DNA of 64,000 nt from Halichondria panicea (lineage: Eukaryota; Porifera; Demospongiae; Suberitida; Halichondriidae), in NCBI RefSeq assembly GCF_963675165.1, contig NC_087388.1, forward strand, positions 6,233,651 to 6,297,650, in the 5' to 3' direction. Positions 18,871 through 62,874 of this stretch are shown one piece after another. Numbering within the stretch: the stretch's first letter is position 1; every line of letters begins with the position of its first letter. The position numbers were made by a program, and so were the translations under genes. The notes under the pieces are model-generated. The model had not been told where the DNA came from and made no database searches. It saw only the letters and a program-made list of their open reading frames with translations.

Positions 18871-21714
18871 TTACTGTGGCCAGAGTCTGTATCCACAGTA
18901 GGAAATGAATACAATAATGGCAGTAGTTCCAGCCAGCTTGATTGCAGCTGTCTTTCTACTGCGACCCTTGTTCTTGTTCCCCCCAGGGCGGGCAGTGCCA
19001 GGCACCAGCTGTGGAGAGCAAACAGTTCTAGTGTGCATGTACTTCATTATACACAAAACCATAATGTACTATTATTAAAAACTACTGAACAGGTGCATAA
19101 TATTGAGATTCCACACAATGAGTATGCACATTTTATAGTGGTGGCCCTGGGCAGACCAACACAGTGGCCTGCTAACACAGGTCTAAACACATGCTATGGA
19201 GACTTTGAGGCCCATTAACCTGGCTGTATTATAGAGGGTGGCCTGCCAGGTCTAAACACATGCTATGGAGACTTTGGGACCCATTAACCTGGCTGTATTA
19301 TATAGAGGGTGGCCTGCTAACACAGGTCCAAACACATGCTATGGAAACTTTGGAGTCCATTAACCTGGCTGTATTATAGAGGGTGGTCTGCTAACACAGG
19401 TCCAAACACATGCTATGGAAACTTTGGAGTCCATTAACCTGGCTGTATTATAGAGGGTGGTCTGCTAACACAGGTCCAAACACATGCTATGGAAACTTTG
19501 GGACCCATTAACCTGGCTGTATTATAGAGGGTGGTCTGCTAACACAGGTCCAAACACATGCTATGGAAACTTTGGAGTCCATTAACCTGGCTGTATTATA
19601 GAGGGTGGTCTGCTAACACAGGTCCAAACACATGCTATGGAAACTTTGGGACCCATTAACCTTGCTGTATTATAGAGGGTGGCCTGCTAATTAACACAGG
19701 TCCAAACACATGCTATGGAAACTTTGGAGTCCATTAACCTGGCTGTATTATAGAGGGGGCCTCACTGACTAGTTTAAAGGATGACCACAATAGACAGGAT
19801 TCACCGTTACAATAGCTCAAACCATTATTTCCTACCATAGGATATCACCCACAATAATGATATTTCAATTTCCATTGACTAATTGATACCATTGCTACTA
19901 ATTGCTGTCTTAAAATTCACATAATAATTATCTCAACTTACTTTGTTGATTTTGATTTCAATCGTTTTAACTTCTTCGCTGAAAGAGGTGACGGCCTCGA
20001 CAGCTGCTGCAAGCTCATTGGTCAGTTTTTTGACGTCCCTCGACTGCGTGTGGACGTCTAAAAGGTCAGGGTTTGCTTGGACCTGGTTGTCAAGGTAACG
20101 GACGGTAGCTTTGATGTAGTTGGTGTGTTTAGTGAGATGAGATAGGATCACTGAAGCCTCGGTACAACTGTGTGTGTGTGTGTGTGTGTGTGGGCGTGTG
20201 TGTGGGTGGGCTTAGATTTTGGTATAATAATACAATGTCAGCAGTAGGAGAATAGTAATGTACCCCCATACAAGGATACCCACTCTGATGGTGGTTGGTA
20301 CTAACCATCTCTTAGGCTAGACACATTTGTGTGCGCCACTATATATACTTCTAATATTCTGGCACATTACTGCAGTACACCAGATAATACAACTAATGAG
20401 GATGATCGATTATTTACTAACAATGGTAACAGAAGAGAGCTACTTTAGTTAGGAGTTCAAACACAAAATTAATGTATGTAGAATGCAACTATTACATTTG
20501 TATTTTGCATGTATTGCACATTCAAACACCCACACCGCCCACTCACACACCTGATGGTTCTCCCATACGGCAGGTTGGAGGTTTTGGGCATCTCCCATTG
20601 TCTCTGGTGTACCTCAGTAATGGCAGCCATTAGCTTCCTCCTGTAGCTGGGCTGAGTCACTCCCATCTGAGGGAGGGGGGTCTGAAGTATCTTTTATAGG
20701 AACAAAAAAGCTTTAGGGGAAAAAAACTGCCGATAGATAGAGGCTTGTACATTCATTAAGCTAGCATGCACACTTTGTATAAATCACTGACACACCAACA
20801 AAGTTAACGTAGCTAAAGATACTAAAACATGCACAGGCACAGACACACACATCCACCCACCCACATACGCCCACCACCCACACACACACACCATATTGAG
20901 GTCTGTCTCTGTTAAACTCATGAGGTCAGAGAACTGAACTTTGCACTGTCTAAAGAGTGGCAGTAGATCTCCGAGTTGTTGTCCTAATAGGAACAACTCC
21001 AACTCTCCGTACTGTACACACTGAGAGGGGAGGGGCTCCTGTGAGGGGGCGGGCTGGGGTCTGTGTGTATGTGAGGAGGCGGGTTGGAGTTTGTGTGTGT
21101 TGTTTTCTATAATAAGCACAAAGTAGCAAACATTAAAAAAGTTTTTTTAATATTTACGTTCGAGTTCCAATGAATTCCTTGGTCTTAGCGAGAGGTGCCT
21201 CGCTCCCTTGTGATAATGTAATTGAGTCCAACCAATCAGCTACCTCCGTGTGACTGCCGTCCAGTGCCAGGGAAAAGGGGGAATCCCCCATGTAGGTGAT
21301 GGCCTTAGGGTTAGCACCACGACTCACCAACAACTGTGCCACCTGGAGGTGACCTTTACTGGCCGCCAGACAGAGTGCCTGTGTGGGTGTGTGTGTGTGT
21401 GTGGGGGGGGAGCATTGAATTCAGGCAATCACAAAGTCAATGTATGCCTATAGTAGAGGATGACAACAACATTTGTTAGTGCACTTTTCAGTTGTTTATG
21501 GCTCAAAATAGATACTGAAACACATTTTGGAAGGCTATACATGACTGTAGTACTAAACCAAGTATTAGTTGACCTACACACTAGTTAGCTCTGCAACACT
21601 TACAGTCCACTCCCTGGAGTCTTGCTTGTGTATGTCAGCCTCGGCAGAGAGGAGCAGCTCCACTAGAGGCAGGTGGCCATTCTGACTGGCATAGAGTAGG
21701 GGAGACATCTGGTG

Positions 21715-21752
<38 letters not shown>

Positions 21753-24700
21753 GGAAGACCCTTTCAGCTGCCATAACTTAAGTACCGTTGATCCAATGTC
21801 AACAATTTTCTGATTTTCTGAAAGCTTAGAAAAAGACCTATCAAATGATGTCATCGAAGTTCATATTTGAGCGATAAAATTATTCGTCAATTTGGCTGTA
21901 CCATGGATAATAGCCCATGGTCCGAGGCCAAAAAATAACAGATTATACCTCCAATGAAATTTTAAGTCTAAAATTTCATTGATTGCTTAGAAAGAGACGT
22001 TTCAAATGATATTATCATTTGAAACGTCTCTTTCTAAGCAATCAAGTACGGCTGTTGAAATAATTATTACACACTGTTAGGGGAAATTGTATAGTAAAAA
22101 ACTTATTCTCTCACCTGTCGTAGGTGTTGACTTTTGCCCCCTTGTTGAGCAGGAGTCTGGCACAGGAGACGAGGCCTTCCCTCCAAGTCACACTTTTGTG
22201 AGCACACACCGCCATCAGAGCCGTGTAGTAGTCTGTGTGTGTGTGTGTGTGTGTGTGTGGGGGGGGGGTAACATTTTCGTCGAGGTTAGCTTGCCCACGA
22301 AAATAATTGCATATTTTCGCGAGTATTAAATTGGGTACTCGCAGATAATTGGAAATTGCAATGAATCTCATTAAAACCACTAATTATGAATTTCACAAGT
22401 TGAGTTTAAAACATAATGAGCTGAACAGTCAATCTGTGAAAATATGTCACCTTAAGGTACCCGCTATAAGGTAGTAGCAACCACAAAGCATTTATATACC
22501 ACCCACACATCACATGCACCATTGTCTAGTCACATGATGTTTATTTTGATTGTTTATACAAGTAAAGTGTAGTTTGAACAGTTAACTAAACATGTTTGGC
22601 CAATTTTCTAGACCATCACTCAGTGAGGGAGGTTACGACTACAAGTTCATAGAAGAACCTGCAGACTCTCTCAAGTGTCTCATCTGTCTGCTAGTAGTTA
22701 GGGAGCCACAACAACATGGCGGCTGTGGGAAGCTATTCTGTAAAGTGTATATTGACAATCACAAGGTCTTCAGCAATAACTGTCCACACTGTAGAAGATC
22801 ACTCTTGCAAATGGGGCAATCTACCATTTTCCCCGACCTTAAAAGTTAGTAAATCATTACGTGAGAGTGCATTTAATTAGCTATTTAATATAAAATTTAT
22901 ACTGTTTGTAGGTGAGCGGGAGGTGAAGTCTCTGTTGGTTCGATGTCCAACGTCCTGTGAATGGAATGGAGAGCTTCGATCACTAAAAGATCACATGCAG
23001 AAAGTCTGTGAGAACACTTTAGTTCCTTGCCCAAACAGTTGTCAGAATGGCAAAACAACACTCGTTCGGAGAAATCTTGATTATCACCTAGCCGATAGAT
23101 GTCCGAATAGACTACACACATGTACAAAATGTCAGAAAAATATTGTGTTTAAGAATACTAATAACCATAAAATGGTGTGCCCCAAGAGACAGTACACATG
23201 CCCACACTGCAGGGAAGCTGGTGTGTATGATGAGAGAACTACTACACATCTAAGAGTCTGTCCTAAACTAGAGATAACATACAAAAAATGCTCACTACCA
23301 ACATTTCGTTGTGATGAATCTGACCATCCTTTGTTCTGCCCGAATGAACCAGTTCGCTGCACATACTACAATATTGGCTGTGGGGAGAAACCTCTCAGAA
23401 AAGATCTGACTAAACACGAGGAGAATGCTCAACTTCACCTTTCACTAGCAACTAAAGAGGTATTGAGGCTAAAGAAAATACAGCTCCGGAAAGATGCACT
23501 GACATTCAGAATGAAAAATTTTGAAGAACATAACTTTGAAAAAAAAAGATTTTATAGCCCTCCCTTCCACACGTCAGGAGCAGGCTACAAGATGTGTATC
23601 ATTGTGTATGTTAATGGTCTTGGTGATGGTAAGGGCACTCATGTTTCAGTGTCTGCCTATCTCATGAAGGGAGACAATGATGACTCCCTGTCCTGGCCGT
23701 TCACTGGGACAGTCACAATCGAGCTACTCAACCAATTGGAGGACGATAACCATCACAAGGAGCTAGCCGCCCCATTCTCAGCAGACGGTGAGTACAGTCA
23801 GAGAGTGGTGGACGGTGAGAGAGCAGCAAATGGATGGGGCTGGCGTAAGTTCATCTCCCACGCTGACCTCGCTCACAAGCCTCTTAGAAACACTCAGTAC
23901 CTCAAAGACGACATTCTAATATTTCGAGTATCTGCAGAAGCTCACAAGCCATGGCTAGAGTGTGCCAACTGATTGCAGGACAGTTAAAGTTTTGTCAAAT
24001 TTGTGTCATAATTATTGCCTATCATTTATATTGAACCTCTACACATGTACCAGTACTTTCCTACATTATGGGCTATAAACATGAAACAAGATCACTACCT
24101 ACTCAGAGCCTACAAACAATGACATGCTATTGCTCAACGAACACAGTCAGCATATACTGAGATGAGTGCCATTAAGAGTTAAGTACTCCCACAGCAGTAT
24201 ATACCTCTTACAATAATTATAGCCTAAATAAACCTTAAAAGGCGGTTTTATTACAGTGGTAGCTAGAGGTAACCGCTTATAATACAGTACCACCAACTAG
24301 TGTGCACATCCCGTGTAAGAATCCCCACCCACCCACTCACTCACCTTTATGAGTGTTAGGGTCGGCCCCTCTCTCCAGCAACAGCTCCACCATCTCCTCA
24401 CGACCTGTGTCACACGCGTGCAATAATGCAGTCCATCCACTGCTCAGTTGCTCATTCACATTAAAACCTGTACAAATAGCAGATATTGAAACTTTAAATG
24501 ACCGAAACTTAAGTTCTGTTAGTCCAATTTCAGATATTTTACAATTTTCTGGCAGCTCAAAGCGAGCTCTTTCAAATGGTGTATTAAAATGAGAGTTTAT
24601 TTTTGAGGCTGATTTTGACAAAAAAGCGTGGGCTATACTATAGGTGGGGGAAAAGTGCAAATTTGGGTCCAGCCAAAAATATTGAGCTGAATATACCATC

Positions 24701-25379: not shown

Positions 25380-26052
25380 CCGTATACCTCGCTTGCGCAT
25401 GCGCACCGAGGCATAATTACAAAAATAGCTCACCTGAATCTAGTATTGTATGGACTCTTTCCAGGTTACCCCTAGTGACAGCCAATCGAAGCTCCTCCCC
25501 TTGTTCCATCAGTCTGCTCTGTTCCTGTGGATCCGTATCAAACAAAACACACCCTTTTCTGTACTTTGACCTCGGGTCGTCTCCTCCTGTAGGGTTTCTG
25601 CTTCGAGGGTTATTCATCTTCGGTTTGTGTGGGAGATTTGGAGAGAATCTGCTCTGCTTGTACTTGATGGTCGTCGGCTGTGTTGCAGCTGATGATTTGA
25701 TAGCATCAATCTCGAAATTGAGCAGCTTGCTTTCGACTTGATCACTAGGTGGGGGGGAGTCCCCTCCGACAATAAATCCATTTTGTTTAGGCTCGGTATC
25801 ATCGTCTGTAATAATCGTACCAACATTGCTAACAGGGGGAGGTGCATCCATCGCTGCCGCGTCTTTATCAGTAGCCAGATCACTGGTGGCTGCTCCATTG
25901 TTAATGTTGTTATTGTTAGTCGGCTTCTTGGTTATTGTTAGCACAGGTTCATAGTCCAAGTCTCCAGGTGATTGACAATCTCCAAAGTCAAATCCATCAT
26001 CATCTTCAAAATTACTGTATAGACCATATCCTCCCTCTGGTAGGTAGCTCAT
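18871..26052 (-). CDS. ASZ1: GASZ/ASZ1-like ankyrin-SAM protein with C-terminal membrane anchor, complete
   Basis: Nine exons in phase on the minus strand: 26052..25434, 24467..24345, 22232..22115, 21715..21604, 21378..21158, 21060..20892, 20666..20551, 20167..19942 and 19008..18871, giving 613 residues. The order matches GASZ. An acidic, low-complexity N terminus (MSYLPEGGYGLYSNFEDDDG) is followed by ankyrin repeats at about 175-375 (SGWTALLHACDTGREEMVEL, SPLLYASQNGHLPLVELLLS). A SAM domain lies at about 408-485 (LFLLGQQLGDLLPLFRQCKV), then a coiled coil at about 495-568. The C terminus is a single membrane segment (IKLAGTTAIIVFISYCGYRL). In vertebrates and flies GASZ is a mitochondrial outer-membrane scaffold for piRNA factors in germ cells. 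A germline role here is inferred. Intron 2 contains a complete TRAF-like gene on the opposite strand. This is the only intact copy of five in the window. Confidence 0.9.
19166..19759. repeat. 74-bp tandem repeat, about 8 copies, in GASZ intron 8
   Basis: The unit begins GGTCCAAACACATGCTATGG and contains CATTAACCTGGCTGTATTAT. Adjacent copies are 74 bp apart. Two sub-variants alternate (GGAGTCC versus GGGACCC). No coding sense. Confidence 0.9.
21979..22045. repeat. 67-bp perfect palindrome in GASZ intron 3
   Basis: Arms of 32 bp (TTGATTGCTTAGAAAGAGAC onward to CAAATGAT) are separated by 3 bases, so either strand can form a perfect hairpin. The sister introns of the other GASZ copies carry only one arm, so the second arm is a local inverted duplication. 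Confidence 0.85.
22525..22536 (+). promoter_or_regulatory. Shared upstream motif TCTAGTCACATG of the TRAF-like genes
   Basis: TCTAGTCACATG occurs once upstream of every TRAF-like start codon: 22525, 32254, 34444, 36859, 42621, 45333, 50542, 52730, 58603 and 61303. The distance to ATG is 51-75 bp in eight genes and 142 bp in the genes at 45475 and 61445. The core TCACATG is an E-box-like site of the bHLH-zip type. Conservation partly reflects recent duplication, so function is inferred. Confidence 0.6.
22592..23972 (+). CDS. TRAF-like protein 1 (RING, TRAF zinc fingers, MATH), nested in GASZ intron 2
   Basis: Two exons, 22592..22844 and 22912..23972, encode 437 residues. TRAF proteins are cytoplasmic adaptors and ubiquitin ligases below TNF, IL-1 and Toll-type receptors. 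Domains are a RING-like finger at 29-67, several Cys/His TRAF-type zinc fingers at about 90-245 (including CPKRQYTCPHCREAG), a short helix (ATKEVLRLKK), and a C-terminal MATH/TRAF-C domain at about 270-437 with LMKGDNDDSLSWPFTG. Two changes are unique to this copy. A RING cysteine present in all others is Tyr53 (CKVYID versus CKVCID or CKSCIT), and a finger cysteine is Tyr in EITYKKC. Both would remove zinc ligands. The intron is 67 bp. The gene lies wholly within GASZ intron 2 on the opposite strand. AATAAA occurs at 24237. Confidence 0.9.
25294..25377. repeat. (CA)n microsatellite in GASZ intron 1
   Basis: About 42 dinucleotides, almost pure CA with two CG interruptions. It underlies spurious HTHT/VCVC reading frames. 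Confidence 0.9.
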
Positions 26053-27027
26053 CCTGATGTTCTGTACTGTGGAAGGCTTCTAATCTTGCTTAGCTTTTTG
26101 CATGCACTTTTGCAGTCCAGCCACGCCCCTCTCTAATTTGTCAACCACGTGGGTGTGGTATTTCTAAATGGAGCCCATTTATTCTATCCAGAGCCCACCA
26201 TACAAAATGTACAAACATTTTTCTGTCTTCCTAACCCTAACCTACAGTACTATGAGTATACTTTACTGCTTTACATTCTGTCCATTGTATATATCACCAT
26301 GCTTATACTTGCATAGTTAAAATAACACTGATGCTTTATGTGTAAATCACTGATACTGAAACTGAACAGTCTAGATTGAATTGGTGCCGAAAACTAATAT
26401 CTACCAAAACACAGTTACACCATTATGGTTCCAGTACTGCAATTGTTACTCAAAGTGTTTTCATTCGCTGCCGTGTCCAATAGTACATTGTCCAAACTCA
26501 GTGATGCCTTCCTTTCCATGAGGACGGTGAGGCTGACTACCAGAACACAGGGAGTAGTAACTTGACACACATCTCATTGCCATATTCTCTCGGCCATTTT
26601 GTATTTTTATCTCCTCCAGTTTTTAGTTCTTATTCAGATCGTAAGCTTCGTCTTTTGAAGAACAGTTTTTTTGTTGACTGGTAGAACAGAGCATCAGTCG
26701 TGGAACTGACAGCAGCTTGTTTGTTTCGTTTCTTCGTGGTAATCAATCCAGGAAAAAAGGGGATTTCACAGACTCACTAACAACTGTGCCACCTGGAGGT
26801 GACCTTTACTGGCTGCCAGACAAAGTGCCTGTGTGTGGGTGGGAGGGTGTGCGTGGTGTGTGTGGTGTGAGGGTGTGCGTGTGTGGGGGGCCCGGGGAGC
26901 ATTGAATTCAGGCAATCACATAATTATCTTTAACTACATTTGTGCAGCAATAGTCTCCCTACAGCTAGAGAATGAATATTGTTTGTGCACCTTCTGAAGT
27001 AAGTTGCTTATTGGTCTCTTAAATAGA
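26053..27027. other. GASZ 5' flank joined to a truncated duplicate of GASZ exon 5/intron 4
   Basis: The first 750 bp is the GASZ upstream region (TTCTATCCAGAGCCCACCAT), also found upstream of the copies starting at 40637, 48969 and 56626. At about 26775-26832 it runs into the first third of GASZ exon 5 (minus strand). Intron 4 sequence then continues to 27027 and abuts a broken exon 8. The junctions record the end of one duplication unit. Confidence 0.7.
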
Positions 27028-27222
27028 CCTGGTTGTCAAGGTAACGGACGGTAGCTTTGATGTAGTTGGTGTGTTTAGTGAGATGAGACAGGATCACTGA
27101 AGCCTCGGCACAACTGTGTGTGTGCGTGTGTGTGTGTGTGGGGGGGGGGGCTTAGATTTGGTATAATAATGCAATGTCAGCAGTAGAACAATAATAATGT
27201 GTAATAATTATATGTAATGTAC

Positions 27223-30079
27223 ATGCACCCACAGTGATGGTGGTTGGTACCCCCATACAGGGATGCACCCACAGTGATGGTGGTTGGTACCCCCATACAG
27301 GGATGCACCCACAGTGATGGTGGTTGGTACCCCCATACAGGGATGCACCCACGTACAGTGATGGTGGTTGGTACCCCCATACAGGGATGCACCCACAGTG
27401 ATGGTGGTTGGTACCCCCATGCAGGGATGCACCCACAGTGATGGTGGTTGGTACCCCCATACAGGGATGCACCCACAGTGATGGTGGTTGGTACCCCCAT
27501 ACAGGGATGCACCCACAGTGATGGTGGTTGGTACCCCCATACAGGGATGCACCCACAGTGATGGTGGTTGGTACCCCCATACAGGGATGCACCCACAGTG
27601 ATGGTGGTTGGTACCCCCATACAGGGATGCACCCACAGTGATGGTGGTTGGTACCCCCATACAGGGATGCACCCACAGTGATGGTGGTTGGTACCCCCAT
27701 ACAGGGATGCACCCACAGTGATGGTGGTTGGTACCCCCATACAGGGATGCACCCACAGTGATGGTGGTTGGTACCCCCATACAGGGATGCACCCACAGTG
27801 ATGGTGGTTGGTACCCCCATACAGGGATGCACCCACAGTGATGGTGGTTGGTACCCCCATACAGGGATGCACCCACAGTGATGGTGGTTGGTACCCCCAT
27901 ACAGGGATGCACCCACAGTGATGGTGGTTGGTACCCCCATACAGGGATGCACCCACAGTGATGGTGGTTGGTACCCCCATACAGGGATGCACCCACAGTG
28001 ATGGTGGTTGGTACCCCCATACAGGGATGCACCCACAGTGATGGTGGTTGGTACCCCCATACAGGGATGCACCCACAGTGATGGTGGTTGGTACCCCATA
28101 CAGGGATGCACCCACAGTGATGGTGGTTGGTACCCCCATACAGGGATGCACCCACAGTGATGGTGGTTGGTACCCCCATACAGGGATGCACCCACAGTGA
28201 TGGTGGTTGGTACCCCCATACAGGGATGCACCCACAGTGATGGTGGTTGGTACCCCATACAGGGATGCACCCACAGTGATGGTGGTTGGTACCCCCATAC
28301 AGGGATGCACCCACAGTGATGGTGGTTGGTACCCCCATACAGGGATGCACCCACAGTGATGGTGGTTGGTACCCCCATACAGGGATGCACCCACAGTGAT
28401 GGTGGTTGGTACCCCATACAGGGATGCACCCACAGTGATGGTGGTTGGTACCCCCATACAGGGATGCACCCACAGTGATGGTGGTTGGTACCCCCATACA
28501 GGGATGCACCCACAGTGATGGTGGTTGGTACCCCCATACAGGGATGCACCCACAGTGATGGTGGTTGGTACCCCCATACAGGGATGCACCCACAGTGATG
28601 GTGGTTGGTACCCCCATACAGGGATGCACCCACAGTGATGGTGGTTGGTACCCCCATACAGGGATGCACCCACAGTGATGGTGGTTGGTACCCCCATACA
28701 GGGATGCACCCACAGTGATGGTGGTTGGTACCCCCATACAGGGATGCACCCACAGTGATGGTGGTTGGTACCCCCATACAGGGATGCACCCACAGTGATG
28801 GTGGTTGGTACCCCCATACAGGGATGCACCCACAGTGATGGTGGTTGGTACCCCCATACAGGGATGCACCCACAGTGATGGTGGTTGGTACCCCCATACA
28901 GGGATGCACCCACAGTGATGGTGGTTGGTACCCCCATACAGGGATGCACCCACGTACAGTGATGGTGGTTGGTACCCCCATACAGGGATGCACCCACGTA
29001 CAGTGATGGTGGTTGGTACCCCCATACAGGGATGCACCCACAGTGATGGTGGTTGGTACCCCCATACAGGGATGCACCCACAGTGATGGTGGTTGGTACC
29101 CCCATACAGGGATGCACCCACAGTGATGGTGGTTGGTACCCCCATACAGGGATGCACCCACAGTGATGGTGGTTGGTACCCCCATACAGGGATGCACCCA
29201 CAGTGATGGTGGTTGGTACCCCCATACAGGGATGCACCCACGTACAGTGATGGTGGTTGGTACCCCCATACAGGGATGCACCCACGTACAGTGATGGTGG
29301 TTGGTACCCCCATACAGGGATGCACCCACGTACAGTGATGGTGGTTGGTACCCCCATACAGGGATGCACCCACGTACAGTGATGGTGGTTGGTACCCCCA
29401 TACAGGGATGCACCCACGTACAGTGATGGTGGTTGGTACCCCCATACAGGGATACACCCACAGTGATGGTGGTTGGTACCCCCATACAGGGATGCACCCA
29501 TGTACAGTGATGGTGGTTGGTACCCCCATACAGGGATGCACCCACGTACAGTGATGGTGGTTGGTACCCCCATACAGGGATGCACCCACGTACAGTGATG
29601 GTGGTTGGTACCCCCATACAGGGATGCACCCACGTACAGTGATGGTGGTTGGTACCCCCATACAGGGATGCACCCACGTACAGTGATGGTGGTTGGTACC
29701 CCCATACAGGGATACACCCACAGTGATGGTGGTTGGTACCCCCATACAGGGATGCACCCACAGTGATGGTGGTTGGTACCCCCATACAGGGATACACCCA
29801 CAGTACTAGTGATGGTGGTTGGTACCCCCATACAGGGATACACCCACAGTGATGGTGGTTGGTACCCCCATACAGGGATGCACCCACAGTGATGGTGGTT
29901 GGTACCCCCATACAGGGATACACCCACGTACAGTGATGGTGGTTGGTACCCCCATACAGGGATGCACCCACGTACAGTGATGGTGGTTGGTACCCCCATA
30001 CAGGGATGCACCCACAGTGATGGTGGTTGGTACCCCCATACAGGGATACACCCACAGTACTAGTGATGGTGGTTGGTAC
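27223..30079. repeat. 40-bp minisatellite, about 70 units, in intron 7 of GASZ-like copy 2
   Basis: The unit contains GATGGTGGTTGGTACCCCCA followed by TACAGGGATGCACCCACAGT. Most units are 40 bp. Some carry an extra GTAC (44 bp), mostly near the right end. Three are 39 bp and lie exactly 159 bp apart (at 28091, 28250 and 28409), which shows a four-unit higher-order duplication. Intron 7 of the intact GASZ gene has a single diverged unit near 20262-20306, the likely ancestor. Because 40 is not a multiple of 3, very long open frames of 850-970 codons appear on the minus strand in all three frames. They are artefacts. Confidence 0.95.
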
Positions 30080-31488
30080 TAACCATCTCTTAGGGTAGAC
30101 ACATTTGTGTGCTTGAAAGTAGCCTACTTCTAATATTCTGGCACATCACTGCAGTACACCAGATAACACGAGAATGATCGATTATTTACTAACAATGGTA
30201 ACAGAAAAACTAGTTAGGAGTTCAAATACAAAATTAATGTATGTAGAATGCAACTATTACATGTATTGCACACACCCACACCCACACCACCCACACATCC
30301 ACCCACACCCACACACACCCACACCACCCATTCCACCCACTCACACACCTGATGGTTCTCCCGTACGGCAGGTTGGAGGTTTTGGGCATCTCCCAGTGTC
30401 TCTGGTGTACCTCAGTGATGGCAGCCATTAGCTTCCTCCTGTAGCTGGGCTGAGTCACTCCCATCTGAGGGAGGGGGTCTGAAGTATCTTTTATGTAGGA
30501 ACACAAAAAACTGCCGATAGATAGAGGCTTGTGCATGCAGTCTTAACGCAATCAGACAATGCACACTTGTAAATCACAGACACACCAACAAATTTAACGT
30601 AGCTATAGATATTAAAACATACACAGACACATCCACTCCCACACACACCATATCGAGCTCTGTCTCTGTTAAACTCATGAGGTCAGAGAACTGAACTTTG
30701 CGCTGTCTAAAGAGTGGCAGTAGGTCCACGAGTTGTTGCCCTATTAGGAACAACTCCAACTCTCCGTACTGTACACACTGAGAGGGGAGGGGCTCCTGTG
30801 AGGGGGCGGGCTGGGGTCTGTGTGTGTGTTGTTTTCTATAACAAGCACAAAGTAGCAAACATTAAAAAAGAATTTTTTTTAATATTTACGTTCGAGTTCC
30901 AATGAATTCCTTGGTCTTAGCGAGAGGTGCCTCGCTCCCTTGCAATGATGTAATTGAGTCCAACCAATCAGCTACCTCCGTGTGACTGCCGTCCAGTGCC
31001 AGGGAAAAAGGGGAATCCCCCATGTAGGTGATGGCCTTAGGGTTAGCACCACGACTCACCAACAACTGTGCCACCTGGAGGTGACCTTTACTGGCCGCCA
31101 GACAGAGTGCCTGCGTGTGTGTGTGTGTGTGTGTGTGTGTGGGGGGGGAAGCATTGAATCACAAAGTCACTGCCTACATATACAGTAGAGAATGACAATA
31201 TAAATACAAAATTGTTAGTGCACCTTTCAGTTGTTTATGGCTCAAAATAGATACTGAAACACATTTTGGAAGGCTATACATGACTGTAGTACTAAACCAA
31301 GTATTAGTTGACCTACACACTAGTTAGCTCTGCATACACTCACAGTACACTCCCTGGAGTCTTGCTTGTGTATGTCAGCCTCGGCAGAGAGGAGCAGCTC
31401 CACTAGAGGCAGGTGGCCATTCTGACTGGCATAGAGCAGGGGGACATCTGGTGCCTGTGTGTGTGTGCATGAATAACCGAGCGGATAT

Positions 31489-31553
<65 letters not shown>

Positions 31554-47738: not shown

Positions 47739-50611
47739 TATTTGTGCATCCAGTGATATGCCCAAAACTTTGTTCAACAACAAAGTTGCCTCTTACAATA
47801 ATTATAGCCTAAGAGGCCGTTTTATATAATGGTAGTTATTTTTGTGTAGAGGTAACCGCTTATATAGCACCGACCAGTGTGGGCACATCCCGTGTAAGAA
47901 TCCCCACCCACCCACTCACTGTTAGAGTCGGCCCCTCTCTCCAGCAACAGCTCCACCATCTCCTCACCACCTGTGTCACACGCGTGCAATAATGCAGTCC
48001 ATCCACTGCTCAGTTGCTCATTCACATTAAAACCTGTACAAATAGCAGATTTTGACACTTTGAATGACCATAACTTAAGTGCTGTTGGTCCAATTTCAGA
48101 TATTTTACAATTTTCTGGCAGCTCAAAGCGAGCTCTTTCAAATGGTGTATTAAAATGAGAGTTTATTTTCGAGGCTGATTTTAACAAAAAAGCGTGGGCT
48201 ATAGGTGGGGGAAAAGTGCAAATTTGGGTCCGACTAAAAATATTGAGTTGAATATACCATCTGATAGTGTTTTTTCTCAGCTTTTAGAAAATCACAACGT
48301 CATTGCGATAAGACTAACGGAACTAAAGTTATGGGCCCAAACAGTGTACTAAGTAGCTCACCTGAATCTAGTATTGCATGGACCCTTTCCAGGTTACCCC
48401 TAGTGACAGCCAATCCCCTTGTTCCATCAGTCTGCTCTGTTCCTGCGGATCCGTATCAAACAAGACACATCCCTTTCTGTACTTTGACCTCGGGTTGTCT
48501 CCTCCTGTAGAGTTTCTGCTTCGAGGGTTGTTCATCTTTGGTTTATGTGGAAGATTTGGAGAGAATCTGCTCTGCTTGTACTTGATGGTCGTCGGCTGTG
48601 TTGCAGCTGATGATTTGATAGCATCAATCTCAGAACTGAGTGGCTTGCTTTCGACTTATCACTAGGTGGGGGGGAATCCCCTCCGACAATAAACCCATTT
48701 TGTTTAGGTTCGGTATCATTGTCTGTAATAATCGTACTAGCATTGCTGACAGGGGGAGGTGCATCCATCGCCACCACGTCTTTATCAGTAGCCAGATCAC
48801 TGGTGGCTGCTCCATTGTTGATGTTGTTATTGTTAGTCGGCTTCTTGGTTATTGTCATCACAGGTTCATAGTCCAAGTCTCCAGGTGATTGACAATCTCC
48901 AAAGTCAAACCCATCATCATCTTCAAAATTACTGTACAGACCATATCCTCCCTCTGGTAGGTAGCTCATACTGATGTTCTGTACTGTGGAAGGCTTCTAA
49001 TCTGCTTAGCTTAGCTTTGTGCATGCACATTTGCAGTCCGGCCACGCCCCTCTCCAATTTGTCCAACACGTGGGTTGTGGTATTTCTAAATGGTGCCCAT
49101 TTATTCTATCCAGAGCCCACCATACAAAATGTACATTGTACACACTCTTCCTAACCCTAACCTACAGTACTATGATATTATAGTATATACTTCACTGCTT
49201 TACATTCTGTCCATTGTATCGCCATGCTTACAATACACTGATGCTTTGTGTGTAAATCACTGATACTGAAACTGAACAGTCTAATTGAATTGGTGCCGAA
49301 AACCAATAGAATCTCCTCCAGTTTTAGTTCTTATTCAGATTGTCAGCTTCGTCTTCTTTGAAGAACAGTTTCCTTGTTGACTGGTAGAACATCGATTTAG
49401 AGCATCAGTCGTGGAACTGACAGCAGCTTGTTTGTTTCGTTTCTTCGTGGTAATCAATCCAGGAAAAAAGGGGATTTCAATGACTCACTAACAACTGTGC
49501 CGCCTGGAGGTGACCTTTACTGGCCGCCAGACAAAGTGCCTGTGTGTGGGTGGGTGGGTGTGTGTGTGGGGGGGAGCATTGAATTCAGGCAATCACATAA
49601 TTATCGTTAACTACATTTGTGCAGCAATAGTCTCCCTACAGCTAGAATGAATTCTATAAAATTGTTCGTGCACCTTCTGAAGTAAGTTGCTTATGGTCTC
49701 TTAAATAGATTACTGAAACACTTTTTGGAAGAAAGGCTAGTATACAAACTGTAGTATTATTGTTTTGCAACAAACTAAGCCAAGCATTGACATAATAATT
49801 GCACTCACTGTCCACTCCCTGGAGTCTTGCTTGTGTATGTCAGCCTCGGCAGAGAGGAGCAGCTCCACTAGAGGCAGGTGGCCATTCTGACTGGCATAGA
49901 GCAGGGGGGACATCTGGTGCCTGTGTGTGTGTTTCAATAACCAGGGCGGATCAAGGTGTGTGTGCTTGGAGACTCTTTCATCAGCCATAACTTCAGTACC
50001 CGTTGATCCAATGTCAACAATTTTCTGCTGAAAGCTTAGAAAGAGACCTTTCAAAGGATGTCATCAACATTATGAGATAAAAATAATTTGGCTATATCAT
50101 GGAATTGTCCCATGGTTCAAGGCTGAAAAATAACAAATTATTTCCTCAACAAAATTTGTCTTTCTAAGCTTTAATATTGGATCAGTATGGCTGTTGAGAA
50201 ATAATATTACGCACTTTTAGGGGAAATTGTATAACGGTATTTAGCAAAAATGAATCTATATGGAAAATATTCTCTCACCTGTCGGATAGGTACTGACCTT
50301 TGCCCCCTTGTTGAGTAGGCACAGGAGACGAGGCCCTCCCTCCGAGTCACACTCTTGTGAGCACACACCGCCATCAGAGCCGTGTAGTAGTCTGTGTGGG
50401 TGTGTCGGTGGGTGTGTGTGGAGGGGGAGGGATAATCAGCACAGATATTAGACTTAATAAATACATACGTGTCCGTTATATGAATACTATAAGGCCACAA
50501 AGCATATTTATATGCCACCCACACACCACACTAAGCCATTGTCTAGTCACATGATGTCCATTTGTTTGCTAAGTGTACGTGTATAGCTGCACAGTTAGTT
50601 TGGAACTAAAC

Positions 50612-52788: not shown

Positions 52789-54257
52789 ATGAATGGTCAA
52801 TTTTCTAGCCTATCAATCAATGAGGCCGAGGGAGGTTACGACTACAAGTTCATAGAAGAACCTGCAGACTCTCTCAAGTGTCTCATCTGTCTGCTAGTAG
52901 TTAGGGAGCCACAACAACATGGCGGCTGTGGGAAGCTATTCTGTAAGAGCTGTATAACTAAGTACAGGAGGAACGATTGTCCTCACTGCAGACAACCAAT
53001 CAGGGCATCTGGATACCAGCAATTCGGAGGAACTATCTTTAACGATTTTAGAAGTGAGTTAAAAGAGCTATACATGTAGAAATAGTACATAGTATAGACA
53101 CACATACAAGAGTTTCGATTCGTGTCTTTCCCTATATATAGTGGCCTGGCTCTCAAAACTTCCTGCACTTAAACATGAGAACGTTTCTATACCCCTATAC
53201 TATAATTATTCTAGGTGACCAAGAGGTGAAGTCTCTGCTAGTATACTGCACGACCAGCTGTGGTTGGCAAGGGGAGCTGCGATCAGTCGAAGATCACAAG
53301 CAAAACAAGTGCGAAAATAATATAACCCCATGCCCAAATGATTGCGGCTTCGCGCTTATAAGAAAAAATCTTCAGTTTCATCTTGCAACAGACTGCCTGA
53401 GGCGACTCACAAGCTGCCTAAAGTGTAAGCAAGAGATACAGTATCGAGATCTGGACAACCACATGGCAAGAAAGTGCCCCAAGAGACAGTACACATGCCC
53501 ACACTGCAATGAAGCTGGTGTGTATGATGAGAGAACTACTACACATCTGGACGTCTGTCCTAAAGTCAAGATCCCGTGTTATAAATGCTCGGGTACATTT
53601 TCTCGCTGCGATGAATCAAGTCATCCAGTATTTTGCCCTAATGAACCAGTTCAATGCAAGTACTACAGTATCGGCTGTGCAGAGAAGCCTCTAAGAAAGG
53701 ATAAGAGTACGCACGAAAAAAATGCACAGCTTCACCTTTCACTAGCAACAGAAGAGGTATTGAGGCTAAAGAAAGCACAGTTCTGGAAAAATGCTCTAAC
53801 ATTCAGAATTAAAAACTACAAGGTACTCGAATTAGAAGGAAAAGATTTTTATAGCCCTCCCTTCTTAACTTCAGCATCAGGCTACAAGATGTGTATACGT
53901 GTTGATACTAGTAAAGGCACTCATGTTTCAGTGTATGCCTATCTCATGAAGGGAGACAATGATGACTCCCTGTCCTGGCCATTCACTGGGAGAGTTACAT
54001 TTGAGCTACTCAACCAACTGGAGGATGATAACCATCACAAGTGGACAACCAGATTCTCAGCAGATAGTGTTTCCAGTCAGAGAGTGGTGGATCATGAGAG
54101 AGGGGGGAAAGGATATGGCCGGCCTAAGTTCATCTCCCACACTGACCTCGCTCACAAGCCTCTTACAAACACTCAGTACCTCAAAGACGACACTCTAATA
54201 TTCCGAGTATCTGCAGAAGCTCCTGACTACAAGCCATGGCTGGAGTGTACTAATTGA
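52789..54257 (+). CDS. TRAF-like protein 8, chimera of two subfamilies
   Basis: Exons 52789..53053 and 53215..54257, 435 residues. The upstream DNA and first residues (MNGQFSSLSINEAEGG) match TRAF-like 4. From the middle of the RING onward (CKSCITKYRRNDCPHCRQPI) and throughout exon 2 it is of the TRAF-like 5/9 type (GDQEVKSLLVYCTTSCGWQG). The 3' end (HKPLTNTQY, ending ECTN) and 3' flank return to the TRAF-like 4 type. The switches lie inside regions common to all copies, as expected from gene conversion or unequal crossing-over. The frame is intact and zinc ligands match the parents. The upstream motif is at 52730. Confidence 0.9.
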
Positions 54258-55189: not shown

Positions 55190-58100
55190 CAGCTTTACCG
55201 TATCCCTCGTGCGGCTACGCCTCGAGGCATAATTATTAACAATGACATTGCTCATGCTGCATAATGAGAAAAATAAGTTACTTGCTATTTATGGTACATT
55301 AGTAACACATGCATGCACACTAGTGTGTGTCCAGTGATGTGCCCAGAACAGAACTTTCAAAGTGGTGGCTTTAAATCCTCAATCTCAAAATCCAACAACA
55401 AAGTTGCCTCTTACAATAATTATAGCCTAAGAGGCGGTTTTATACAGTGATGGTTATTTTTGTCTATAGAGGTAACTGGTTATACAGCACCGACCAGTGT
55501 GGGAACATCCCGTGTGGGAACATCCCGTGTAAGAATCCCCACCCACCCACTCACCTTTATGAGTGTTAGGGTCGGCCCCTCTCTCCAGCAACATCTCCAC
55601 CATCTCCTCACGACCTGTGTCACACGCGTGCAATAATGCAGTCCATCCACTGCTCAGTTGCTCATTCACATTAAAACCTGTATAAATAGCAGATTTTGAC
55701 ACTTTGAATGACCATAACTTAAGTGCTGTTGGTCCAATTTCAGATATTTTACAATTTTCTGGCAGCTCAAAGCGAGCTCTTTCAAATGGTGTATTAAAAT
55801 TAGAGTTTATTTTCGAGGCTGATTTTAACAAAAAAGCGTGGGCTATATATAGGTGGAGGAAAAGTGCAAATTTGGGTCCCACTAAAAATATTGAGTTGAA
55901 TATACCATCTGATAGTGTTTTTTCTCAGCTTTCAGAAAATCACAACGTCATTGCGATAGGACTAACGAAACTAAAGTTATGGGCCCAAACAGTGTATAAG
56001 TAGCTCACCTGAATCTAGTATTGCATGGACCCTTTTCAGGTTACCCTTAGTGACAGCCAATCGAAGCTCCTCCCCTTGTTCCATCAGTCTGCTCTGTTCC
56101 TGTGGATCTGTATCAAATAAGACACACCCTTTTCTGTACTTTGACCTCGGGTCGTCTCCTCCTGTAGGATTTCGCTTTGAGGGTTACTCATCTTCAATTT
56201 GTGTGGGAGATTTGGAGAGAATCTGCTCTGCTTGTACTTGATGGTCGTCGGCTGTGTTGCAGCTGAAGATTTGATAGCATTAATCTCAGAATTAAGTGGC
56301 TTGCTTTCGACTTGATCACTAGGTGGGGGGGAATCCCCTCCGACAAAAAAACCCATTTTGTTTAGGCTCGGTATCATCGTCTGTAATAATCGTACTAGCA
56401 TTGCTGACAGGGGGAGGTACATCCATCGCCACCGCGTCTTTATCAGTAGCCAGATCACTGGTGGCTGCTCCATTGTTGATGTTGTTATTGTTAGTCGGCT
56501 TCTTGGTCATTGTCATCACAGGTTCATAGTCAAGTCTCCTGGTGATTGACAATCTCCAAAGTCAAATCCATCATCATCTTCAAAATTACTGTACAGACCA
56601 TATCCTCCTTCTGGTAGGTAGCTCATACTGATGTTCTGTACTGTGGAAGGCTTCTAATCTGCTTAGCTTTGTGCATGCACTTTTGCAGTCCGGCCACGCC
56701 CCTCTCCAATTTTGTCCAACACATGGTTGTGGTATTTCTAAATGGTGCCCATTTATTCTATCCAGAGCCCACCATACAAAATGTACATTGTACACATTCC
56801 TAACCTACAGTACTATGATATAGTATATACTTCACTGCTTTACATTCTGTCCATTGTATCGCCATGCTTACAATACACTGATGCTTTGTGTGTAAATCAC
56901 TGATACTGAAACTGAACAGTCTGGATACTGAAACTGAACAGTCTGGTGCCGAAAACCCGCAATATCTACCAAAACACAGTTACATTCCAGTAGAATTGTT
57001 ACTCGAAATGTTTTCATTCGCTGCCGTGTCCAACAGTACATTGTCCAAACTCAATGATGCCTTCCTTTCCATGAGGTGAGGCTGACTATCAGAGCACAGG
57101 GAGGAGTAACTTAACACACATCTCATAGCCATATTCTCTCGGTCATTTTGAGATTATTATCTCCTACAGTTTTTAGTTCTTATTCAGATTGTCAGCTTCG
57201 TCTTCTTTGAAGAACAGTTTCCTTGTTGACTGGTAGAACATCGATTTAGAGCATCAGTCGTGGAACTGACAGCAGCTTGTTTGTTTCGTTTCTTCGTGGT
57301 AATCAATCCAGGGAAAAGGGGATTTCACGGACTCACTAACAACTGTGCCACCTGGAGGTGACCTTTACTGGCCGCCAGACAAAGTGCCTGTGGGTGGGTG
57401 GGAGGGTGTGTGTGTGTGTGCGTGTGTGTGGGTGTGTATGTGTGTGTGTGTGTGTGTGTGTGGGGAGCATTGAATTCAGGCATCACATAATTAGCTTTAA
57501 CTACATTTGTGCAGCAATAGTCTCCCTACAGCTAGAATGAATTCTATAAAATTATTCGTGCACCTTCTGAAGTAAGTCGCTTATGGTCTCTTAAATAGAT
57601 TACTGAAACACTTTTTGGAAGAAAGGCTATATATATATATAAACTGTTGTTTTTGCAACAAACTAAGCCATGCATTGACATAATAATTGCACTCACAGTC
57701 CACTCTCTGGAGTCTTGCTTGTGTATGTCCGCCTCGGCAGAGAGGAGGAGCTCCACTAGAGGCAGGTGGCCATTCTGACTGGCATAGAGTAGGGGGGACA
57801 TCTGGTGCCTGTGTGTGTGTGCATGAATAACCGGGCGGATCTAAGTGTGTGTGTGTGTTTGGGGACGACCGTTGATCCAATGTAATACAATTTTCTGATT
57901 TTCTGAAATCTTAGAAAGAGACCTCTCAAACGGTGTCGATCCTCAGAGTATATATATTTGAGAGAAAAAATTAGAGCTGTCCATGGATATACATTTAGCC
58001 CATGGTCCAAGGCCGAAAATACAAATTATGCATTCGATGAAATTTTGAATTTTTACACATCATTTGAAACGTCTCTTTCTAAGCTTTCACGTTATATGGC

Positions 58101-58656
58101 TATTAAAATATTACGCACTCTTAGGGGAAATTGTATAATGGTATAATAAATATATTCTCTCATCTGTCGTATGTGTTGACCTTTGCACCCTTGTTGAGTA
58201 GGAGTCTGGCACACAAGACAAGGCCCTCCCTCCGAGTCACACTCTTGTGAGCACACACCGCCATCAGAGTGGTGTAGTAGTCTGTGTGGGTATGTGTGTG
58301 GGTGGGTGGAGGGGGGAATCAGCAGAAGCCAGAATATACATGTAATATAGTTATGTATCAGAGGAGGTACGACATGAGTACCTTGATTAGGTTTGGTCAC
58401 TTGTAAAATTGATCATTGTTGCATGTGACTAATTAACTCAATTTGAGGGTACTTGTGTCAGACCTCCTCATGTACTAGCCTCCTTCATAAGGCCTCAGAA
58501 AGGCCTGGGATCGAGGCTAGTCATGTACTAACGCGACAGCCACAAAGCATATTCATAAGGCCACCCACACACCACACCACACCACATTACACCACACCAT
58601 TGTCTAGTCACATGATTTATTTTATAAGTAAAGTGTAGCTAAACAGTTAACTAATA

Positions 58657-60124
58657 ATGAATGATCAATTTTCTAGCCTATCACTCAATGAGGGAGGTTA
58701 TGACTACAAGTTCATAGAAGAACCTGCAGACTCTCTCAAGTGTCTCATCTGTCTGCTAGTAGTTAGGGAGCCACAACAACATGGCGGCTGTGGGAAGCTA
58801 TTCTGTAAGAGCTGTATAACTAAGTACAGGAGGAACGATTGTCCTCACTGCAGACAACCAATCAGGGCATCTGGTTACCAGCAATTCGGAGGAACTATCT
58901 TTAACGATTTTAGAAGTGAGTTAAAAGAGCTATACATGTAGAAATAGTACATAGTATAGACACACATACAAGAGTTTCGATTCGTGTCTTTCCCTATATA
59001 TAGTGGCCTGGCTCTAAAAACATTTCCTGCACTTAAACATGAGAACATTTCTATACCCTTATACTATAATTATTCTAGGTGACCAAGAGGTGAAGTCTCT
59101 GCTAGTATACTGCATGACCAGCTGTGGTTGGCAGGGGGAGCTGCGATCAGTCAAAGATCATGAGAAAAACAAGTGTGAAAATAATATAACCCCATGCCCA
59201 AATGATTGCGGCATCACGCTTATAAGAAAATATCTTCAGTTTCATCTTGCGACAGAATGCCTAAGGCGACTCACAAGCTGCCTAAAGTGTAAGCAAGAGA
59301 TACAGTATCGAGATCTGGACAACCACACGGTAAGAAAGTGCCCCAAGAGACGGTACACATGCCCACACTGCAATGAAGCTGGTGTGTATGATGAGAGAAC
59401 TACTACACACGTAAGAGTCTGTCCTAGAGTCAAGATCCCGTGTTATAAATGCTCGGGTACATTTTCTCGCTGCGATGAATCACGTCATCCAGTATTTTGC
59501 CCTAATGAACCAGTTCAATGCAAGTACTACAGTATCGGCTGTGCAGAGAAGCCTCTAAGAAAGGATAAGAGTACGCACGAAAAAAATGCACAGCTTCACC
59601 TTTCACTAGCAACAGAAGAGGTATTGAGGCTAAAGAAAGCACAGTTCTGGAAAAATGCTCTAACATTCAGAATTAAAAACTACAAGGTACTCGAATTAGA
59701 AGGAAATGATTATAGCCCTCCCTTCTTAACTTCAGCATCAGGCTACAAGATGTGTATACGTGTTGATACTGGTAAAGCCACTCATGTTTCAGTGTATGCC
59801 TATCTCATGAAGGGAGACAATGATGACTCCCTGTCCTGGCCGTTCACTGGGAGAGTTACATTCGAGCTACTCAACCAACTGGAGGATGATAACCATCACA
59901 AGGAGACAACCACATTCACAGCAGACAGTGTTTCCAGTCAGAGGGTGGTGGATGGTGAGAGAGGGGGGACAGGACGTGGCCGGACTAAGTTCATCTCCCA
60001 CGCTAACCTCGATTACAATGCCGATAACAACACTCAGTACCTCAAAGACGACACTCTAATATTCCGAGTATCTGCAGAAGCTCCTGACTACAAACCATGG
60101 CTGGAGTGTACTAACTGTGTGTAG
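58657..60124 (+). CDS. TRAF-like protein 9 (second subfamily)
   Basis: Exons 58657..58915 and 59079..60124, 434 residues. Positional and sequence partner of TRAF-like 5, with the same RING type, GDQEVKSLLVYC start of exon 2 and ECTNCV end. Differences lie mainly in the first finger (MTSCGWQGELRSVKDHEKNK), in THVRVCPRVKIPC, and at the MATH start (LELEGNDYSPPFLTS). The upstream motif is at 58603. Confidence 0.9.
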
Positions 60125-60315: not shown

Positions 60316-60659
60316 TACCGTACTTATTCGATTTAAAGCGACACTTTTAAATAATTACAAAGTCAGAGGTCGTTTCTTTTGGAGGTTGAAAAATTATGTT
60401 GAAGTCTTGGTGTCGCATATTTAGAGGGTCGCATCTAATTGGAGGTTACTCCACTATCCTCGATTATAGGCTGCTTAAATTACATTGTTTCTTGCAGCCT
60501 GGAATCGAGGCTGTGGTTTGACCTCTATTTAGGACGCGACATAAAAAAATAATTGTCAACGCTGCAGTCGCTACTTTTAGAGGTCAGAAAATTGGAAAAG
60601 ATCGAGGGTGTCGCATATTTGGAGGGTCGCTTTTCGCTTTAAATCGAATAAGTGCGGTA
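60316..60659. mobile_element. Inverted-repeat element, partner of 44322-44658
   Basis: Termini TACCGTACTTATTCGATTTA and AAATCGAATAAGTGCGGTA. Same location downstream of TRAF-like 9 as the block A copy downstream of TRAF-like 5. Confidence 0.75.
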
Positions 60660-61444
60660 TATAGCACCATGAACTTGCCTCATAAACAACGTACAATATA
60701 CAATACATGCGTGCCATAAACACATGTTGTACTGAGGGAGAAAACATATAGAATACCGTATAATTGTTCAACCATGTTCGAATTCAGTAATTATGGCTGT
60801 TGAAAAATCCGAACCCTCCTTGGGAAATTGTAGAAGCACGTAGCAAAAAAAAAATCTTTTCATATTCTCTCACCTGTCGTATGTGTTGACCTTTGCCCCT
60901 TTGTTGAGTAGGAGTCTGGCACAGGAGACGAGGCCTTCCCTCCGAGTCACACTCTTGTGAGCACACACCGCCATCAGAGCCGTGTAGTAGTCTGTATGTG
61001 TGTGTGTGTGGGGGGGTCGTGGGTAAAACTTTTGTCCCCACAAAAATAATAAATTTTTATATTAAATCGCAAAAGTACTCGCAGATAATTGGAGATCGCA
61101 ATGAATCTCATTAAAACCGCCATGAATAACATTAATTTCACAACTTGAGTAAAATTTTAATACCAGCAAAATGAGCTGAACAGTGAAATCGCAAACAAAT
61201 CTATCTGTGAAAATATGTCACCTTAAGATACCCGCTATAAGGTAGTAGCAGCCACAAAGCATTTTATATGCCATCCACACATCACACCACACCAAGCCAT
61301 TGTCTAGTCACATGGTATCTATCGTGTTTCTCTATATAAGTACGTGTATAGCTGCACAGTTATTACAATCTCTTTATAAGCCTTTGACATTGTCTAGTGA
61401 AGTCACATGTAAGTAGCTAGCTGCACAGTTAGTTTGGACTAAAC

Positions 61445-62874
61445 ATGTTTGGCCAATTTTCTAGCCCATCACTGAATGAGGGAGGTTATGACTACAAGTT
61501 CATAGAAGAACCTGCAGACTCTCTCAAGTGTCTCATCTGTCTGCTAGTAGTTAGGGAGCCACAACAACATGGCGGCTGTGGGAAGCTATTCTGTAAAGTG
61601 TGTATTGACAAGCACACGGTCTTTAATAGCACTGACTGTCCACACTGTAGAAGATCACTCTTGCAAATGGGGCTTTTTACTGACCTTAGAAGTGAGTAAA
61701 TCATTACATGAAAAAATTGCTAACACGTGAGAGTACATGTAACTATTATACTAAATATAGCTGCCATTATATGTATACATTGAATATAACATTGTTTTGT
61801 TTTGTAGGTGAGCAGGAAGTGAAGTCTCTGCTGGTTCATTGTCCAACAGCCTGTGAATGGAACGGAGAGCTTCGATCACTAGAAGACCACATGCAGAAAG
61901 TTTGTGAGAATGCTATAGTTCCCTGCCCAAATGGTTGTAGCAATGGCAAAACAACGATGCTGCGAAAAAACGTTGATTTTCATATCCTTACTAAGTGCCC
62001 GAATCGACCACACTCCTGTACAAAATGTCAGAATGTAATGGAGTTTAGGAATGTCAAAAGCCATGAACTAAACGAGTGCCCCAAGAGACAGTACACATGC
62101 CCACACTGCAATGAAGCTGGTGTGTATGATGAGAGAACTACTACACATCTAGAAGTCTGCCCTACAGTAGAGATCAAATGCAAAAAATGCTCACTACAGA
62201 TCATTCGCTGTGATGAATCTAATCATTCTTTGGATTGCCCAAATGAACCAGTTTGCTGCACATACTACAACATTGGCTGTGCAGAGAAGCCTCTAAGAAA
62301 GGATCAAAGTGCACACGAAGAAAACGCTCAGCTTCACCTGTCACTAGCAACTAAAGAAGTCTTGAGATTAAAGAACAAAATACTCGTGAAGAATACACTA
62401 ACATTTAAAATGAAAAAGTTTCAAGCACATCAATTGGATAACAAATACTTTTATTATAGCCCTCCTTTCTACACCTCAGGAGCAGGTTACAAGATGTGTA
62501 TCCGTGTATATGCCAATGGCTTTGGTGATGCTAAGGGCACTCATGTTACAGTGGGTCCCTTTCTCATGAAGGGGGACAATGATGACTCCTTGTCCTGGCC
62601 GTTCACTGGGATAGTCACAATCGAGCTACTCAACCAACTGGAGGATAAGAACCATCTCAAGATAAAAATCAAATTTCTACCAGATAATGTAGCCAGTCAG
62701 AGAGTGGTGGATGGTGAGAGAGCAGCAAATGGAAGGGGCTGGGGTAAGTTCATCTCCCACGGTGACCTTGCTCACAAGCCTCTTACAAACACTCAGTACC
62801 TCAAAGACGATACTCTAATATTTCAAGTATCTGCAGAAGCTCCTGACTACAAGCCATGGCTGGAGTGTAACTAA
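61445..62874 (+). CDS. TRAF-like protein 10
   Basis: Exons 61445..61691 and 61808..62874, 437 residues. The first exon and upstream DNA are of the TRAF-like 6 type (MFGQFSSPSLNEGG, motif at 61303, 142 bp upstream). The second exon is of the TRAF-like 3/4 type (HCPTACEWNGELRSLEDHMQ, GCSNGKTTMLRKNVDFH). It is therefore a second candidate recombinant, with the switch in or near the intron. A 1-bp insertion near the end changes ECTN to ECN before the stop, without wider effect. Confidence 0.9.

Follow-up and report, generated by a model that had tools for sequence, protein, structure and literature searches.

Probable growth of a sponge TRAF-like gene array by tandem duplication from within a GASZ host intron, with host-exon scars and exon exchange

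A stretch of 64,000 nucleotides from the sponge Halichondria panicea (the window: C12:6233651-6297650, contig NC_087388.1, with w marking a position within it) holds ten TRAF-like genes, all on the plus strand, interspersed with five GASZ-like copies, A to E, all on the minus strand. A first-pass annotation had recognized this antisense arrangement, which is borne out here, and had proposed that duplication carried both genes while only the TRAF-like passengers were kept. The genome comprises 131 megabases (Mb) in 39 contigs; it was searched for MATH domains (317 candidates, of which 150 were scored) and with GASZ pieces (1016 candidates, 113 scored), and the stretch C12:6195001-6495000, window included, was read around the array to which the window belongs.

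GASZ copy A is the intact host gene. In a spliced model it runs on the minus strand from w26052 to w18871, with nine exons encoding 613 amino acids; the exon borders are GT-AG and the phases are consistent across all nine. The first-pass exon list had passed over one ankyrin exon (w22115-22232), which is exon 3 here; its own exon 3 is our exon 4. The exons of the model, by window position, are:

25434-26052, minus strand: exon 1, with the ATG, an acidic N-terminus and a GT donor
24345-24467, minus strand: exon 2, ankyrin (Pfam Ank)
22115-22232, minus strand: exon 3, ankyrin; found as a scar along the array
21604-21715, minus strand: exon 4, ankyrin
21158-21378, minus strand: exon 5, ankyrin
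20892-21060, minus strand: exon 6, SAM (Pfam SAM_1 on the spliced protein)
20551-20666, minus strand: exon 7
19942-20167, minus strand: exon 8, helical by eye
18871-19008, minus strand: exon 9, hydrophobic tail by eye, and stop

Translated, exons 8 and 9 give a helical-looking stretch and a hydrophobic tail, both judged by eye; a C-terminal membrane tail is a trait of GASZ. Pfam places ankyrin repeats in the protein (Ank_2 at 3.2e-35; Ank in four stretches) and, after them, a SAM domain at residues 422-471 (SAM_1, 31.6 bits against a cut-off of 23); the best 60 matches in the PDB are ankyrin proteins, many of them designed. The accessible part of one account (PMC2727916) describes GASZ as a germline nuage protein with four ankyrin repeats in vertebrates, a SAM domain and a leucine zipper. 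By its ankyrin repeats and SAM domain, copy A would be a GASZ-like gene, and it is called GASZ below. Close matches to GASZ pieces (at least 64% identity) are confined to C12 6.2525-6.3995 Mb, the remaining matches being of ankyrin type at 30-44% identity; no second complete copy appeared among the 113 scored of 1016 candidates, and copy A, alone intact, is therefore the sole complete copy found. Intron 8 contains a 74-bp tandem repeat in 8 copies (w19164-19757); an inverted repeat of about 430 bp (89%) lies directly past the stop (w18225-18653), and a 31-bp piece of exon 9 occurs a second time at w18158-18188.

Each of the ten plus-strand genes consists, by similarity, of a RING exon followed by an exon encoding zf-TRAF and MATH domains (exon 2):

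22592-23972, plus strand: A1, antisense in intron 2 of GASZ A
32329-33730, plus strand: B1
34514-36181, plus strand: B2, with the same exon 2 as D1
36916-38343, plus strand: B3
42672-44131, plus strand: C1
45475-46842, plus strand: C2
50612-52048, plus strand: D1
52789-54257, plus strand: D2, N-terminus and flanks of B3 type, RING end and exon 2 of C1/E1 type
58657-60124, plus strand: E1
61445-62874, plus strand: E2

As had been claimed, exon 2 is open in all ten and every intron is GT-AG in phase 1 (read by eye); an in-frame ATG is likewise present in all. Their positions agree with the earlier statement that each lies between exon 4 (the former exon 3) and exon 2 of a GASZ copy, exon 2 of copy E falling just beyond the window at C12:6297845. 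A1 is wholly nested, on the opposite strand, inside intron 2 of GASZ A (w22233-24344). It is the sole TRAF-like gene within an intact GASZ, and it carries Cys-to-Tyr changes in the RING and in one zinc finger; an open frame alone is thus no proof of function. Pfam returns zf-TRAF (47.1 bits; cut-off 27) and PF21355 (TRAF-C/MATH, 102 bits) on exon 2 of A1, and zf-RING_2 (28.3 bits; cut-off 27.3) on the one RING frame run, that of B3. Among solved structures, B3 matches the RING-zinc-finger chain of TRAF6 (3hcs, 9.5e-21), a TRAF5 chain (4gjh, 1.2e-25) and other TRAFs; aligned with TRAF6, it has a Lys at the position of the RING His. Nine of the ten genes are among the 150 scored MATH matches, C1 lying outside the scored set. 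To judge from their domains, the products would be TRAF-type adaptors or ubiquitin ligases, with the RING in common and varied binding ends.

The other GASZ copies are damaged. Copy B retains exons 1-7 and part of exon 8; in C and D, exons 1-4 survive with some 60 bp of exon 5; E retains exons 2-4, part of exon 1 and a piece of exon 5, its exons 1 and 2 lying beyond the window. Within the window their parts are:

27026-31110, minus strand: copy B 3' part, exons 7, 6 and 5, a partial exon 8 (27026-27118) and an intron 7 minisatellite (27223-30058)
31346-31967, minus strand: copy B exons 4 (1-bp deletion) and 3
39598-40637, minus strand: copy B exons 2 and 1 (two 1-bp deletions common with D; 22-bp deletion)
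41336-42301, minus strand: copy C exon 5 fragment at the unit junction, exons 4 and 3
44915-45032, minus strand: extra exon 3 scar in unit C, upstream of C2
47921-48969, minus strand: copy C exons 2 (9-bp deletion) and 1 (1-bp and 10-bp deletions)
49482-50391, minus strand: copy D exon 5 fragment, exons 4 and 3
55555-56626, minus strand: copy D exons 2 and 1 (frameshifts)
57330-58281, minus strand: copy E exon 5 fragment, exons 4 and 3
60874-60991, minus strand: extra exon 3 scar in unit E, upstream of E2

In exon 1, D adds a 1-bp insertion to the two 1-bp deletions that it has in common with B, and E lacks the half with the ATG and has insertions besides. The two frameshifts common to B and D mean that a host copy went through a further duplication after it had been broken. 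The first-pass count of four damaged copies in five thus stands for truncations and frameshifts, and is not borne out for the lost splice donors that it also named: wherever the exon is kept in copies A to E, the aligned donors of exons 1, 2 and 4 all read GT, and past the 9-bp deletion of copy C the donor still reads GTGAGT. A single kind of unit junction, at which the GASZ 5' flank runs into the middle of exon 5, recurs between B and C, C and D, and D and E; the 5' flank of A (w26771-27027) resembles exon 5/intron 4. The minisatellite that fills intron 7 of B (w27223-30058; 40-bp unit, 69 copies, 97% matches) accounts for the long minus-strand open frames there; in GASZ A, roughly one related unit can be made out by eye near w20270-20320.

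The window is the left end of a larger array, of 45 exon-2 loci (fragments included), which spans about 145 kb at C12 6.2525-6.4004 Mb. Thirty loci are intact: 10 of 10 in the window versus 20 of the 35 later ones, some of which are fragments (Fisher p 0.019). DNA of GASZ exon 3 has 18 matches in the genome, all at C12 6.2557-6.3902 Mb and each upstream of a TRAF-like gene, so the array continues past the window. A local search gives 19 such exon 3 scars, which precede a TRAF RING exon by 211-941 bp in every case, at seven of the ten window genes and 12 of the 35 later loci. Scars of exons 1-2 lie near 6.333, 6.396 and 6.399 Mb, beside the loci arr63339, arr63942 and arr63975; with the exon 3 scars, they spread the mark of the host along the array.

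A tree was built on 37 intact rows. In it, all 30 intact genes of the array group with one gene from contig C8 in a single clade (100/99), which splits into lineage I (99/99; 15 rows: the ten window genes, four other array genes and the C8 gene) and lineage II (100/99; 16 array genes). Four TRAF-like genes that flank the array, left and right, do not belong to this clade. The idea of lineage II as GASZ-free was dropped after exon 3 was recognized. By hand count, 39 of the 150 scored MATH matches lie in the array and 111 outside it; the genome search found no GASZ exon 3 beside those 111, and the host-intron route of growth is therefore local. The expansion borne by a host intron that the first-pass annotation described accordingly applies to an array of 45 loci and does not extend to MATH matches elsewhere.

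The TRAF-like genes are under purifying selection. Omega (dN/dS) is 0.35-0.80, with a median of 0.45, in 44 of the 45 window pairs, the remaining pair being identical; exon 2 has no frame break in any of the ten genes, whereas in the A-B flank 20 gap events accompany 81 substitutions. A variable part of the MATH domain (A1 exon-2 residues 277-319) shows a ratio of amino-acid to silent differences (pN/pS) of 0.72 vs 0.43 elsewhere, over 11 sister pairs (p 0.001); positive selection on this part was considered and rejected, as the ratio stays below 1.

The host copies were not simply abandoned. By counting, GASZ A against B-E gives pN/pS 0.13-0.28. Codon maximum likelihood on copies A-D gives omega of 0.24-0.30 for A, 0.21-0.22 for C, about 0.3 for the B/D ancestor and 0.7-1.1 for the tips of B and D; neutrality is rejected for C (p 0.009, exon 1; 2.5e-4, exons 1-4) and fits the B and D tips. 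These numbers are small, the model ignores recombination, and four omegas bring no significant gain over one (p 0.23). GASZ C is at least as constrained as the TRAF-like genes, so host decay came late: constraint still acted on the GASZ copies during much of their existence, and retention of the TRAF-like genes alone is a late state. Asymmetric decay as first proposed is therefore half right; TRAF frames are kept and four GASZ copies are broken, but the dN/dS comparison finds A and C constrained and only the B and D tips compatible with neutrality.

Such constraint on C (omega 0.21), the kept donors of exons 1, 2 and 4, and the phase 0 end of exon 4 would suit a UGT1-type arrangement, in which exons 1-4 of copies B-E still serve as a choice of 5' cassettes for splicing to the 3' exons of A. 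With exon 1 frameshifted in B, C and D, the ATG half missing from E, and tens of kb to be spanned, we regard this as very improbable.

The simplest account of the locus supposes that copying of a single GASZ-plus-TRAF unit gave rise to the ten genes, with GASZ decaying from birth and TRAF kept. Some pairs behave in this way: exon 2 is identical in B2 and D1, and the GASZ 5' flanks of B and D are 1% apart; exon 2 of C1/E1 has a silent-site difference (pS) of 0.092, beside a GASZ C-E pS of 0.076. Elsewhere the divergences do not agree. Between units, the divergence of the GASZ 5' flank and intron 1 is 1-9%, and exon 3 scars differ from copy A by 7.3% inside the window (6 copies) and 7.0% outside (12 copies). 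Silent divergence (dS) of TRAF exon 2, by contrast, reaches 0.6 among window pairs and mostly exceeds the GASZ noncoding divergence (0.01-0.09), so that simple co-duplication is insufficient; in A1/B1, C2/E2 and B3/D2 exon 2 pS is 0.19-0.37, against 2-7% in the upstream flanks. Moreover, GASZ C is constrained and the array reaches far past the GASZ units. The mismatch of divergences refutes this simple model as a full account, and we hold it to be quite improbable. Joint duplication of both genes is nevertheless recorded by the scars at 19 TRAF loci, of which 12 lie beyond the window, although most of the ten window genes are not simple unit copies.

Much of the excess in exon 2 fits exchange of this exon between copies, with constraint on the RING as a partial alternative. 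Over 14 lineage-I and 16 lineage-II genes, exon 2 pS is 0.287 within the window and 0.598 between lineages; the corresponding values for the RING core are 0.099 and 0.105. With the RING tree, the grouping of lineage I as a clade is rejected (approximately unbiased test, p-AU 0.026). Along the collinear units A/B and C/E, the GASZ parts, the TRAF upstream DNA, the RING exon and C1/E1 differ by 1-8% per 250 sites (10% in one stretch), and exon 2 of A1/B1 and C2/E2 shows a local jump to 8-23%; a dispersed repeat and one scan window across the A1 end (11%) were left out of this comparison. D2 is a two-sided replacement, of exon 2 and the end of the RING exon, and the single case found. It differs from B3 by 1.9% upstream, 5.0% downstream and 21% in exon 2; its exon 2 is 5-6% from those of E1 and C1, whose flanks do not align with its own; its RING exon starts B3-like and ends C1-like. 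In B2/D1, exon 2 and 350 bp downstream are identical, the RING differs by 5.9% and the upstream DNA does not align. C1/E1 is the sole pair to agree in exon 2 and both flanks. In a permutation test on common sequence runs, the best four pairs were each reached by 1 of 300 shuffles.

The B2/D1 identity, without a difference over six successive 250-site windows, is what an assembly built from collapsed or duplicated haplotypes might show. Units are otherwise mostly 1-9% apart in their GASZ parts, differ in gene content and lesions, and lie on one contig; an artefact of this kind is very unlikely.

The account that we favour, with a probability of roughly 60%, is that tandem duplication of a GASZ-nested TRAF-like gene built the array, leaving host scars, and that exon exchange followed. 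It would begin with a TRAF-like gene (a RING exon, then a zinc-finger/MATH exon) lying antisense in GASZ intron 2, as A1 does now. Repeated tandem duplication from the GASZ locus would have produced copies many of which carry host DNA, anything from exon 3 alone to exons 1-8; the extra GASZ copies would have been constrained for a while, then have decayed once redundant. Unequal exchange and gene conversion may have shifted exon 2, with its presumed substrate or receptor binding, among copies, while the promoter and RING end stayed similar.

Part of the evidence weighs against this account, some of it at the exchange step. RING-core pS is about 0.1 also against two of three related genes on C8, so that constraint, not homogenization, may explain part of the RING likeness. 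Exon 2 of C1/E1 has a pS of 0.092 vs 0.036-0.037 in the flanks, a difference to which the counting method may contribute. A1/B1, C2/E2 and B2/D1 (upstream side) are one-sided and could be crossovers or differential loss. Finally, over 24 pooled and overlapping rows of recent block copies (at least 900 bases, at least 93% identity) exon 2 differs by 3.7% vs 2.7% in noncoding DNA. A reading without exchange would build on the RING values and the pooled rows: the RING would be constrained even at silent sites, as its flat pS suggests, and exon 2 would evolve fast under relaxed or diversifying selection, in keeping with the higher amino-acid change in part of the MATH domain. It overlaps with other readings on the origin of the array. 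The two-sided replacement in D2, the rise at silent sites too, and the permutation result speak against it, as do the longest three of the recent block copies (99.3, 95.9 and 97.1% identical), in which exon 2 differs less than noncoding DNA; we think it distinctly unlikely. Exon 2 as a mutation hotspot is likewise made unlikely by those three blocks, though less so in view of the pooled rows.

Other observations bear on the founder. No exon 3 scar is present at 26 of the 45 loci, and one of the 19 scars is just 31 bp. The three TRAF-like genes at C8:5875063-5882189 are 68-72% identical to A1, and the one in the tree belongs to lineage I; the genome search gave no GASZ exon 3 match on C8, the weak 19-23-bp hits beside two of the three genes being taken for chance. 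Lineage I thus includes a scar-free gene, and the founder may have been another gene than the nested one. A second perspective, then, supposes that the TRAF array came first and independently, and that GASZ pieces spread into it later via recombination at the common RING/promoter end. The exon 2 lineages (pS 0.60 between I and II) are older than the exon 3 scars (7%), and TRAF-like clusters with no match to GASZ exon 3 occur elsewhere in the genome. Yet exon 3 scars stand upstream of the RING exon throughout the array, and exon 1-2 scars also lie far along it; we judge this order of events rather unlikely, and duplication from the nested gene the better account.

Elsewhere in the window, two minus-strand frames with cysteines lie at w7941-9025 and w16688-17368, the second a Pfam Glypican match (1.5e-7) and the first looking like a relative by eye; an open frame at w3377-4030 has EEATKET-like coding repeats over a 117-bp tandem repeat.

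Tandem arrays with one part variable and another constant are familiar from clusters of the UGT1 and protocadherin type; unlike in those, each TRAF-like gene is a separate two-exon unit, and no spliced common constant exon is proposed. Plant MATH-domain families and nematode MATH/F-box families are large, with a varied MATH end; the sponge array differs from these expansions in its RING-zf-MATH architecture and in growth tied to one host gene. Among vertebrates, nested pairs of LRRTM and alpha-catenin genes were duplicated together, with the partner later lost in some lineages, according to the available part of that report (PMC3933685). The likeness, as far as that part goes, is an opposite-strand gene in a host intron, duplicated with its host; the difference is that three pairs are found there, in most jawed vertebrates, and here a 45-locus tandem array with truncated host pieces and exon exchange. 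The insect TipE cluster, a family nested in the intron of another gene, with escape from nesting (PMC3240667), is small, stable and ancient; repeated host-exon scars, present in the TRAF array, go unmentioned in the available part of that account. A literature search, with most subscription journals beyond its coverage, listed no title on the present locus. Within the literature searched, the elements are known singly, and the novelty lies in finding them together, host-exon scars and exon exchange included, in a single tandem array.

In this young gene family the host-exon scars tag many of the duplications and time them by an outside clock, so that duplication, host decay and exon exchange can be separated at a single locus. 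Should the proposed exchange of exon 2 cassettes hold, the array would be a compact case of modular TRAF-like diversification. A further implication, possible but doubtful, and put forward tentatively, is that the array acts as a diversification machine, in which the promoter and RING end are common property and the zinc-finger/MATH exon is traded as a cassette. An animal lineage would then gain fast-changing ubiquitin-ligase or adaptor specificities, with GASZ scars to tag the duplications behind them.

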